Source of the DNA: Deltaproteobacteria bacterium
Lineage (GTDB): Bacteria; Desulfobacterota; Desulfuromonadia; Geobacterales; DSM-12255
Reading direction: 5' to 3'
Assembly: GCA_021849045.1 (NCBI GenBank)
Contig: JAJZTK010000015.1
Span: forward strand, 1 to 42,428
Length of the DNA: 42,428 bases
A program made the position numbers and the translations under genes. Numbering within the stretch: the first letter of the stretch is position 1; each line of letters opens with the position of its first letter. The notes under the pieces were generated by a model. The model was not told the DNA's origin. It saw nothing but the letters and a program-made list of their open reading frames with translations, and ran no database searches. This document shows, piece by piece, positions 21,666 to 31,302 of this stretch.

Positions 21666-23273
21666 ATGGAAAAACGTGTTCTCATTGCTGTCGTCCTCTC
21701 CATTGCGGTCATGTACGCTTATTCGTACCTGGTCCCACAGCCTCCCAAACCGGTTTCCGGTCAGCAGGCGGCACAGTCGCAGCCAGCTACGGCCGCCCCG
21801 GCGCCGGTTGGCGCTCAGAAGGAACAGTCCGCACCGTTGCCGCAGTTGGTGCCAGCTGGCGCTGCGACGCAAGCGGCCCAGGATGTGACCGTGGAAACGG
21901 ACCTCTACCGAGCGGTTTTCTCCACCAAAGGCGGGGCGTTGAAGCGGCTCGTGCTGAAACGGTACAAGGAAACGGCCGGTCCGCAGGGTAAGGACGTTGC
22001 CATGGTGGCCGAGGACAACGCTGCTGTATACCCGCTGAGGAGCAATCTGGAAGGGTTCCCCGTCGATGCCGGCACTGTTTTCGGCGTTACTGCCAGCTCG
22101 CTTTCGGTGGCAAAGGGCGAAAAAAGGGTGCTCGATTTTACCCTCACGTCTCCGAGCGGTGTCGTGTTCCAGAAGAGTTACACCTTTAGCGGCGACAGCT
22201 ATGCCATCGATCTGGTGCAAAAAGTCACCAATACCGGGTCTGCCCCGCAGTCAGGATCGGTTCAGCTCCTTCTGACCAATCATGCAGCCCCTCCCAAGGA
22301 TGGTGGCGGTCGATTCGAGGTTTTTGGTCCGGCAACCCTGACAGCAGAGGGCGTCTCGTTCGACAAGATCAAGGAACTGGACAAGGGGGAGAAGGCCTAT
22401 CAGAAGGGGGTTCTCTGGACCGGCTTTGCCGACAAGTACTTTCTCGGCGCCGCCCTGGCTGTTAACAACAGCATTCAGTCTGTCCGCATCAAAACTGTCG
22501 GCGGCTATATCGAGAACGTCATTGGCTCGGCCCAGCTGACCGCCAGACCCGGCGAGAGCGTGACTGTCCCGGTACGACTCTATTTCGGTCCCAAGGATCT
22601 GGACATTCTCAAGTCCCAGGGGAGCAGGCTGGAGGAGTCGATCGATCTGGGCTGGTTCTCGGCCATTGCCAAGCCACTTCTGTTCACGCTCAAGTTCTTC
22701 CACCGTTATCTGGGCAACTACGGCCTGGCGATCATTGTCATCACCGTAATACTGAAGATTCTCTTTTTCCCGCTTACCCACAAGAGCTACAAGTCGATGA
22801 AGGAGATGCAGAAGCTCCAGCCGAAGATGCAGGAACTGAAGGAAAAGCACAAGGACGACCGGGACGCCATGAACAAGGCGGTGATGGAGCTGTACCAGAC
22901 CCACAAGGTAAACCCGCTCGGCGGCTGTCTGCCGATGGTCGTTCAGATTCCGGTATTCTTCGCCCTGTACAAGGCCCTCATGTTTTCCATTGAGCTGCGC
23001 CATGCGCCTTTTTACTTCTGGATTCACGACCTGGCCGGCAAGGACCCCTACTATGTGACCCCGATCATCATGGGTGTCACCATGTTCATCCAGCAGAAGA
23101 TGACCCCGTCCCAGATGGACCCGGTTCAGGCGAAGATGATGCTGGCACTGCCAGTGGTCTTCACCTTCATGTTTCTCAACTTCCCGTCGGGGCTCGTGCT
23201 GTACTGGCTGGTGAACAACGTGCTCACCATTGCCCAGCAGACGTACATCAACAAGTCCCTGAAGGAAGCGTAG
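21666..23273 (+). CDS. yidC: Membrane protein insertase YidC/Oxa1
   Basis: YidC inserts and folds inner-membrane proteins alone or with SecYEG. An N-terminal membrane helix (about residues 4-20) is followed by a Pro/Ala/Gln-rich linker and a large periplasmic domain (about 65-325), as in Gram-negative YidC. The Oxa1-type core then follows, with PLTHKSYKSMKEMQKLQPKM (the cytoplasmic coiled region) and the remaining helices, ending with a short basic tail. The 535-residue length is typical. mnmE follows after 12 bp, and no R3H-domain jag/khpB gene lies between them. Confidence 0.97.
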   Translation: MEKRVLIAVVLSIAVMYAYSYLVPQPPKPVSGQQAAQSQPATAAPAPVGAQKEQSAPLPQLVPAGAATQAAQDVTVETDLYRAVFSTKGGALKRLVLKRYKETAGPQGKDVAMVAEDNAAVYPLRSNLEGFPVDAGTVFGVTASSLSVAKGEKRVLDFTLTSPSGVVFQKSYTFSGDSYAIDLVQKVTNTGSAPQSGSVQLLLTNHAAPPKDGGGRFEVFGPATLTAEGVSFDKIKELDKGEKAYQKGVLWTGFADKYFLGAALAVNNSIQSVRIKTVGGYIENVIGSAQLTARPGESVTVPVRLYFGPKDLDILKSQGSRLEESIDLGWFSAIAKPLLFTLKFFHRYLGNYGLAIIVITVILKILFFPLTHKSYKSMKEMQKLQPKMQELKEKHKDDRDAMNKAVMELYQTHKVNPLGGCLPMVVQIPVFFALYKALMFSIELRHAPFYFWIHDLAGKDPYYVTPIIMGVTMFIQQKMTPSQMDPVQAKMMLALPVVFTFMFLNFPSGLVLYWLVNNVLTIAQQTYINKSLKEA

Positions 23274-29042: not shown

Positions 29043-30410
29043 TTAAAGGGGTATGGCGTGCAGGTCGCGACGTTGGTAGCGCCAGGCAAAGGCAGCGGCC
29101 CGGACGAACCAGTCGATCACGAAGACCCCCCAGACCGCATAGAGGGAGAGATGGAGGAGGGAACTGACCACCCAGGCCAGCAGCACCCTTACGCCCCACA
29201 TGCTGAGCAGGGTGACGATGAAGACATAGAAGGTGTCGCCGGTTCCTCGCAGGCTCCCGGCATAGACAAAGGAGAGAGCGAGCGGTATCTGGGCAAAAGC
29301 GACCATCCGGAGGAACACGCACCCCTTTTCGATAACCGCTTGGTCGGAGGTGAACAGGGCCATGAGCAGGTGGGGGAAGGCAAGGAACAAGAGCGCCATG
29401 ATCCCCATGACCAGTACCGCCAGACGAAGCGCCTCCCGGTGGCTGATCCTCGCCCGGCGCAGCTTGCGTGCCCCCAGGGCCTGTCCCATCAGGGTGGCGG
29501 CGGCGATTCCCATGCCGGCGCCGGGCATGAACGAGAGCGACTCGATGGAGAGACCAACCTGGTGGGCCGCATAGGCTGCGGTACCGTAACCGATGATGAA
29601 CTTGGAGTAGAGGAGCTGGCCGGATTGCTGGGCGACCCGCTCCAGGGCCACCGGGTAGCCGACCTGCCAGATCCGGCGGGCCAGAAGGAGGTCTGGTCGG
29701 CCGATTGCCAGGTAATGTCGGCGTAGCGCCTGCCAGAGCAGGTAGAGAAAGGCCAGGCATTCCGAGATGTTGATGGCATAGGCGGCGCCGATAACCCCGA
29801 GCGGGGGGATGCCGAACAGCCCGTAAATGAGCGGCCAGGCAATTGCCACGTGGAGGATGTTTAAGAGCAGCACGCCGGTCATGGGGGTGCGGGTGTCACC
29901 GATGCCGTGCATGATCCCGGACAGTATATTGAGCCCGGCAGTAAAGGCGAACCAGAGGAAGACCAGCCGGATATAAGCGCCGGCATACGCCATCACATCG
30001 TCACTGGCTCCCATCAGACGCGCCAGCTCGGCACCGTAGCGGCCGCCGATCACTGTAGCCGCAAACGCCATGATGCCGCAGATAAGCAGTGCGGCAAAAG
30101 CGGCGCGTCGGGCATCCCGCTGGCGCCCGGCACCCCACAGCTGGGCAATGACCACAGTGGTGCCGGTGGAAAGCCCCCAGAACACTGTCATGACGACAAA
30201 GACCAGCAGCTGTCCCAGCCCTACAGCGGCAATTGCGGCCGCCCCTACGCCGCCGACCAGAAAGATGTCGATAATGGAGACCAGCCGTTGCAGGAGGGAC
30301 GAGAGGAGGACCGGCAGGGAAAGGTTTACCACGTTTCGCCGGATGGAAACAGGTTTGCCCGGATTGCCCACCAGCCGGTTCCGGATTCTTTTGAGTGCCG
30401 CTGCGGTCAT
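29043..30410 (-). CDS. MATE-family efflux transporter
   Basis: The 455-residue protein has about twelve hydrophobic segments arranged as two similar halves. It shows MATE traits such as NLSLPVLLSSLLQ at the start, a first-half GIGDTRTPM and a second-half GTGDTFYVF that mark the internal repeat, and LPGAGMGIAAATLMGQALGA-like packing (seen here as MPGAGMGIAAATLMGQ). MATE proteins exchange Na+ or H+ for drugs or metabolites across the inner membrane. The substrate is unknown. Its ATG lies 1 bp after the stop of the selenoprotein gene, with an AAGGAGGAG upstream inside that gene, so the two form one unit. Confidence 0.92.
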   Translation of the reverse strand: MTAAALKRIRNRLVGNPGKPVSIRRNVVNLSLPVLLSSLLQRLVSIIDIFLVGGVGAAAIAAVGLGQLLVFVVMTVFWGLSTGTTVVIAQLWGAGRQRDARRAAFAALLICGIMAFAATVIGGRYGAELARLMGASDDVMAYAGAYIRLVFLWFAFTAGLNILSGIMHGIGDTRTPMTGVLLLNILHVAIAWPLIYGLFGIPPLGVIGAAYAINISECLAFLYLLWQALRRHYLAIGRPDLLLARRIWQVGYPVALERVAQQSGQLLYSKFIIGYGTAAYAAHQVGLSIESLSFMPGAGMGIAAATLMGQALGARKLRRARISHREALRLAVLVMGIMALLFLAFPHLLMALFTSDQAVIEKGCVFLRMVAFAQIPLALSFVYAGSLRGTGDTFYVFIVTLLSMWGVRVLLAWVVSSLLHLSLYAVWGVFVIDWFVRAAAFAWRYQRRDLHAIPL

Positions 30411-30411
30411 G

Positions 30412-30663
30412 CTACCAGTCCAACTCCTCCTTCATGTTCAGTACAAAATTCTTGGCCCGGCCTGACGGCGCGATTATCCCGTAGGCCATGGCCTCCTTCA
30501 GCTCCTCTTCCGTTGCGCCGGCACTCTTCGCGACCGCGAAGTGCTTCTTCAGTCAGGTGGGACAGCCGACAGCCACGGCGCAGCCGACCCGGATCAACTC
30601 GCGGGTTTTGGTGTCGAGCACCTCGCTATACTCGAAGTCGAGGATCTGCTTGCGGATCTTCAT
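30412..30663 (-). CDS. AhpD-like selenoprotein (carboxymuconolactone decarboxylase fold), in-frame UGA read as Sec
   Basis: The reading frame has 83 codons with one in-frame UGA at codon 37 (30553-30555). Around it the protein reads GCPT-U-LKKH, so Cys34, Sec37 and His41 form C-x-x-U-x-x-x-H. This is the AhpD redox motif CxxCxxxH with selenocysteine in place of the second Cys. Sequence on both sides is in one frame and continues the same helical fold (LIRVGCAVAVG before, ATEEELKEAMAYGIIAPSGR after), so this is not a decayed gene. A SECIS-like hairpin follows the UGA. The ATG has AGGAGG 6 nt upstream. AhpD-like proteins reduce peroxiredoxins or carry thiol redox reactions; that role is inferred. 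AhpD-like selenoproteins are known in other bacteria. Confidence 0.88.
30522..30555 (-). promoter_or_regulatory. SECIS element for the AhpD-like selenoprotein
   Basis: After the UGA, 11 bases precede a perfect 6-bp stem, CTTCGC (30541-30536) and GCGAAG (30531-30526), closed by the loop GGTC (30535-30532). The loop begins 17 nt after the UGA and starts with GG. Both fit published bacterial SECIS rules of a G in the first loop positions and a short fixed distance. The loop sequence GGUC is also present in the E. coli fdhF SECIS loop. An outer pairing of CACT with AGTG is possible with a two-base bulge. Confidence 0.82.
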
Positions 30664-30757
30664 CGGGGCCTCCTGTACATTTGGCTAGCCTTCTGATCAC
30701 ATAGTACCTATCACATTTATCGGCAAAATGACACCAGAAGCGTGCCTGTTTCATCCC

Positions 30758-30786
30758 TTGTCCGGGGCGGGAGGGTGTGCTATAAG
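30758..30786 (+). promoter_or_regulatory. Possible sigma-70 promoter of tadA
   Basis: TTGTCC (30758-30763) is followed after 17 bp by TATAAG (30781-30786). The -10 lies only 9 bp from the chosen tadA ATG, so transcription would begin within a few bases of that codon and give a leaderless or nearly leaderless mRNA. If tadA instead starts at 30841, the leader would be about 48 nt with AAAGGA at 30822-30827. Confidence 0.4.
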
Positions 30787-30795
30787 GCACAGATA

Positions 30796-31302
30796 ATGGC
30801 TCGGGAAAAACGGCAGGTCATAAAGGATGATCTCTACTGGATGGACAAGGCGCTTGCCCAGGCTGCCAGGGCAGGGGAGCGGCGCGAGGTGCCGATCGGG
30901 GCTGTCCTTGTAAGGGATGGCATTGCCATTGCGTATGGCTTCAACCAGCGGGAGGCGAAGAACGACCCGTGCGCCCACGCCGAGCTGCTGGCGATCCGCC
31001 AAGCGGCCAGGAAGCTGAAGAGCTGGCGCCTCACCGGTACGACCCTCTACGTGACCTTGGAGCCGTGCCCGATGTGCATGGGGGCGATTCTGCTGGCGCG
31101 GATCGAACGGCTGGTCTTCGGCTGCTTCGACCCCAAGGCCGGGGCAGCAGGCTCCCTGTACGACCTGACCAACGACCGGCGCTTCAACCACACCGTTACC
31201 GTTACCCCGCGTGTTCGGGAAGAGGAATGCTCCGGTATCCTGAGCAGTTTTTTCAAAGAGCTCCGCCAGCAGAAGAAAGCGGAGCGGGACGCGACCAACT
31301 GA
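30796..31302 (+). CDS. tadA: tRNA-specific adenosine deaminase TadA
   Basis: TadA converts wobble A34 to inosine in tRNA-Arg(ACG). The zinc site is complete: His61 and catalytic Glu63 in CAHAELLAI, and Cys91 and Cys94 in PCPMC. The ATG at 30796 keeps the conserved DDLYWMDKALAQA beginning and gives 168 residues. An alternative ATG at 30841 would cut into this conserved region. A longer upstream extension has no family similarity. The gene is divergent from the selenoprotein-MATE unit. Confidence 0.93.
   Translation: MAREKRQVIKDDLYWMDKALAQAARAGERREVPIGAVLVRDGIAIAYGFNQREAKNDPCAHAELLAIRQAARKLKSWRLTGTTLYVTLEPCPMCMGAILLARIERLVFGCFDPKAGAAGSLYDLTNDRRFNHTVTVTPRVREEECSGILSSFFKELRQQKKAERDATN

Follow-up and report, generated by a model that had tools for sequence, protein, structure and literature searches.

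A gene for a small GSU3128-family selenoprotein with an AhpD/CMD fold lies on the minus strand of the window (the whole stretch of 42,428 nucleotides that was analysed), and its in-frame UGA at codon 37 is almost certainly read as selenocysteine (Sec) by SelB with the help of a hairpin located just downstream. The family is already catalogued, and the locus is another orthologue, genuine but ordinary. As stated in the first-pass annotation of this DNA, AhpD-like selenoproteins are known from other bacteria. A 4-carboxymuconolactone-decarboxylase-like selenoprotein was listed for G. sulfurreducens in a prediction paper of 2005 (PMC1242214), a survey of 2006 (PMC1794560) reported a "distant AhpD homolog" in this species and in G. 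uraniireducens (printed as uraniumreducens), and a review of 2026 (PMC13188914) lists the distant AhpD homolog under accession NF041047, with a CxxU motif and one Sec. The in-frame UGA was therefore read correctly from the raw sequence, in a family known to the catalogues for about 20 years. The gene had also been described as hidden from ordinary gene calling, which holds for naive gene callers but not for modern annotation, where a dedicated NCBIfam equivalog (NF041047) exists.

Gene anatomy and family membership

The features of the locus are the following:

30412..30663, minus strand: GSU3128-family AhpD-like selenoprotein gene, 83 aa, ATG to TAG
30553..30555, minus strand: in-frame UGA, codon 37, predicted Sec of the CPTU-LKK-H motif
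30526..30541, minus strand: SECIS-type hairpin CUUCGC-GGUC-GCGAAG, loop starting 17 nt after the UGA
30669..30674, minus strand: Shine-Dalgarno-like AGGAGG, 5 nt before the ATG
29043..30410, minus strand: MATE-family efflux transporter, a neighbour retained only in part of the Geobacterales
30784..31302, plus strand: tadA (tRNA adenosine(34) deaminase), divergent neighbour, context only

The frame of 83 codons runs from 30663 to 30412 on the minus strand and, as first described, contains a single internal stop, the TGA at 30555-30553 (codon 37). With U37 read from this TGA, the translation is MKIRKQILDFEYSEVLDTKTRELIRVGCAVAVGCPTULKKHFAVAKSAGATEEELKEAMAYGIIAPSGRAKNFVLNMKEELDW, in which E22-x11-C34-P-T-U37-x3-H41 reproduces the AhpD active-site motif. 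A genome-wide search found one full-length copy in its own genome, interrupted by the codon-37 TGA only.

The protein matches NF041047 ("GSU3128 family (seleno)protein", an equivalog model with a curated cut-off of 110 bits) over model positions 1-83 of 84 (E 7.4e-50, 167 bits) and the Pfam domain CMD (PF02627; E 7e-14, 52 bits vs a gathering score of 23), and its C34-P-T-U37 corresponds to the CxxU with one Sec given for NF041047 in PMC13188914. It is AhpD-like and not AhpD sensu stricto, because it scores only 14.2 bits against TIGR00777, whose cut-off is 191.95. The AlphaFold prediction has a pLDDT of 94, and its best PDB matches in Foldseek are the CMD/AhpD-core proteins 3bey, RclX (7y4r) and TTHA0727, with AhpD from M. 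tuberculosis further down the list; the E-values are modest (best 1.2e-3), the query being a short helical protein. Family model, domain and fold all bear out the initial description as AhpD-like.

In the alignment with Cys-type AhpD-like proteins that had been proposed as a check, E22, C34, C/U37 and H41 are invariant. These are the proton relay residues of the E-x11-CxxC-x3-H pattern and the counterparts of Glu118-Cys130-Cys133-His137 in AhpD (PMC3141380), with U37 falling, as claimed, on the second cysteine of the motif (Cys133). The genome of the window also encodes a CMD-domain paralogue (G000:C61:15947-16087, locus L002), 47% identical over 47 residues and located on the same contig as the tRNA-Sec gene (at 22526), that has lost both redox residues (GSKGSLSSH vs GCPTULKKH).

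The hairpin downstream of the UGA

The hairpin starts 11 nt after the UGA (30541-30526) and is composed of a 6-bp stem (CTTCGC/GCGAAG) closed by a GGTC loop. Bacterial SECIS elements have been defined (PMC13188914) by a loop of 3-9 nt with a G in its first two bases, a stem of 4-16 bp, a distance of 16-37 nt from the UGA and an MFE <= -7.5, and the hairpin agrees with all four published constraints (4-nt loop GGUC, 6 bp, 17 nt and an MFE of -11.1 kcal/mol for 45 nt). The six-pair stem is intact in all 74 distinct sequences compared, 73 of them identical and one with U-G in place of C-G. In two of the pairs, the partners are wobble positions (His-Lys and Phe-Ala) that the protein leaves unconstrained; in 34 sequences TTC, the second GCG and AAG never vary, and the two Lys codons directly upstream are split about evenly between AAG and AAA, so that wobble sites inside the stem are frozen while the adjoining ones vary freely. 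We infer pairing from this frozen sequence and not from covariation, because the stem is essentially invariant and a compensatory double change was never seen among the 74 distinct sequences. This comparative evidence supports the SECIS-type hairpin that the first-pass annotation had pointed out from its 6-bp stem, GGUC loop and distance.

The loop is more variable than the stem, being GGTC in 62 of the distinct sequences, GGGC in 3, GGCC in 3, GGTT in 1 and CCTG, CTTG or TCTG in 5; the latter five (YYUG loops) lack the early G of the bSECIS model. Loci L040, L042, L052, L115 and L122 have CCUG, CUUG or UCUG where other loops read GGNC; their stem is intact, and Val is changed to Leu in the protein. 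The named records among these five are two Geobacter sp. and one Trichlorobacter lovleyi.

Single-sequence folding was rejected as evidence for a SECIS (z = +0.61, no better than shuffles), and an Rfam scan of the window gave no match. Taken by itself, the anatomy is weak evidence: the window has 63 comparable frames interrupted by a TGA, of which 10 have a stem-loop of at least 6 bp at SECIS distance and 3 have the C/U redox spacing, and the fold, as just noted, is unexceptional. Judged by sequence comparison, homology and conservation raise the locus far above chance, because of the NF041047 match (E 7e-50), the TGA present in all 34 orthologues and the frozen synonymous sites of the stem.

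A transcription terminator, or some element other than a SECIS, could also form such a hairpin, and there is indeed a terminator-like call at 30526-30541, on the opposite strand (3 calls in the region vs 1.7 expected). However, the hairpin lies within the coding sequence, is equally far from the UGA in every relative, even where the neighbouring genes differ, and fits the bSECIS model, which makes this explanation very improbable.

Conservation of the UGA and the selenocysteine machinery

A search of 84,980 species genomes identified 34 close relatives, 68-98% identical and titled Geobacter, Geobacteraceae, Desulfuromonadales, Deltaproteobacteria or related names, with TGA at codon 37 in every one of them. 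Within the same class, 136 of 277 genomes contain matches over the NF041047 cut-off (137 in total), each with one TGA; an even sample of the phylum (395 genomes) gave 16 matches, all from this class and all with the TGA. Neither the 277 class genomes nor the 395-genome sample yielded a Cys form above the cut-off, and this Sec-only family lends itself well to asking which capacities of selenocysteine are lacking in cysteine. One genome contains a second near-identical gene copy at a contig end (G134:C112:13813-14040, locus L091) with an additional in-frame TAG, possibly a strain variant or a decaying copy.

The frame is interrupted and its single-sequence fold is unexceptional, as would be expected if the locus were a pseudogene, a Cys-type AhpD-like gene in which TGT or TGC had changed to TGA, by mutation or by sequencing error, and the UGA were a plain stop. 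Against this, the identical TGA occupies the identical codon in 34 independent close relatives and is found in every over-cut-off class member listed, there is no Cys form among them, and the residues 3' of the UGA are as conserved in the alignment as those 5' of it. The pseudogene reading can be regarded as already refuted on these comparative grounds and is extremely improbable; a sequencing error, which the first-pass annotation had named as one way in which its proposal could fail, is excluded by the same TGA in independent genomes. Two stacked products, a 36-codon ORF ending at the UGA (an ORF present by definition) and a separate downstream product, are just as implausible, since the conserved CxxU-x3-H active site has the UGA at its centre and the CMD domain match continues unbroken across both sides of it.

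Decoding of the UGA as Sec remains the preferred reading, and the genome search suggested at the outset found all four components of the machinery: tRNA-Sec (74.7 bits), selB (383 bits), selA (613 bits) and selD, which has its own TGA. Two SelD loci are present (G000:C193 and G000:C3, loci L021 and L022), with an in-frame TGA in each, the C3 copy reading SCAGUAAK. In the class, a selA match was found in 129 of the 136 genomes with the family vs 108 of the 141 without it. Seven family-bearing genomes have no selA match; five of them are 59-81% complete and contain tRNA-Sec or selB. In the other two, G217 (96% complete) and G227 (99%), neither selA nor selB nor tRNA-Sec was found over the cut-off, and the intact UGA frame and hairpin are retained (G217:C33, taken as locus L047, and G227:C21, taken as L037), pointing either to unbinned contigs or to a recent loss of the Sec machinery. 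In G227 selD is present without a stop. A broader interpretation, which we consider rather unlikely, is that this is an obligate selenoprotein family confined to the class and lacking a Cys form, whose frozen SECIS stem has diverged to a clade-specific YYUG loop without the canonical early G, and whose gene is kept by some lineages after losing the classical Sec machinery.

Genomic context, proposed mechanism and known systems

The ATG of the MATE gene lies one base after the selenoprotein TAG, and the two genes are probably co-transcribed. A promoter scan found nothing. The downstream MATE gene is common to several genera of Geobacterales and is replaced elsewhere by other genes, the alternative contexts being glnE upstream with a DUF116-like gene and fmt downstream, or a recO-like gene downstream (glnE, DUF116, fmt and recO are names given from reading the translations). 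A general functional link drawn from the neighbours was rejected, because the downstream gene differs among genera. The context, which had been singled out as deserving attention, carries little functional signal, because MATE downstream and divergent tadA are common only to part of the Geobacterales.

In the proposed mechanism, SelB and Sec-tRNA-Sec would insert selenocysteine at UGA37 under the direction of the hairpin 11 nt downstream, and Sec37 would then stand where AhpD from M. tuberculosis has its second cysteine (Cys133). Because of the AhpD precedent, Sec37 is expected to be the attacking residue and Cys34 its resolving partner, and Glu22 and His41 would be part of the proton relay. 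By analogy, the protein is likely to be a small AhpD-type thiol/selenol oxidoreductase that would form a selenenylsulfide between Cys34 and Sec37, its most likely activity being either the reduction of peroxide or thiol-disulfide exchange.

Among known systems, the locus differs in nothing of substance from the GSU3128 family, or distant AhpD homolog (NF041047; PMC1794560, PMC13188914), with which it shares the CxxU, the length, the bacterial group and a full-length match over the cut-off; it is 98% identical to the orthologue from Geobacter argillaceus. AhpD from M. tuberculosis and the AhpD-like protein PA0269 have the same spacing of Glu, CxxC/U and His in the relay and the same two-helix core, whereas the protein described here would have Sec for the second Cys, consists of a single domain of 83 aa and is too distant for TIGR00777. 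The marine selenoproteins AhpD-like 1 (COG2128) and AhpD-like 2 (pfam02627) (PMC2398784) have in common with it the CxxU motif and an AhpD-like/CMD domain, but they are set apart by the catalogues, the 2006 list giving the COG2128 AhpD-like protein and the distant AhpD homolog as separate entries, and that of 2026 separating several AhpD-like and CMD-like entries from NF041047. The closest solved relatives, by sequence and by fold, are the CMD proteins RclX (7y4r) and 3bey, which contain Cys at the predicted Sec position, RclX being also longer (112 aa).
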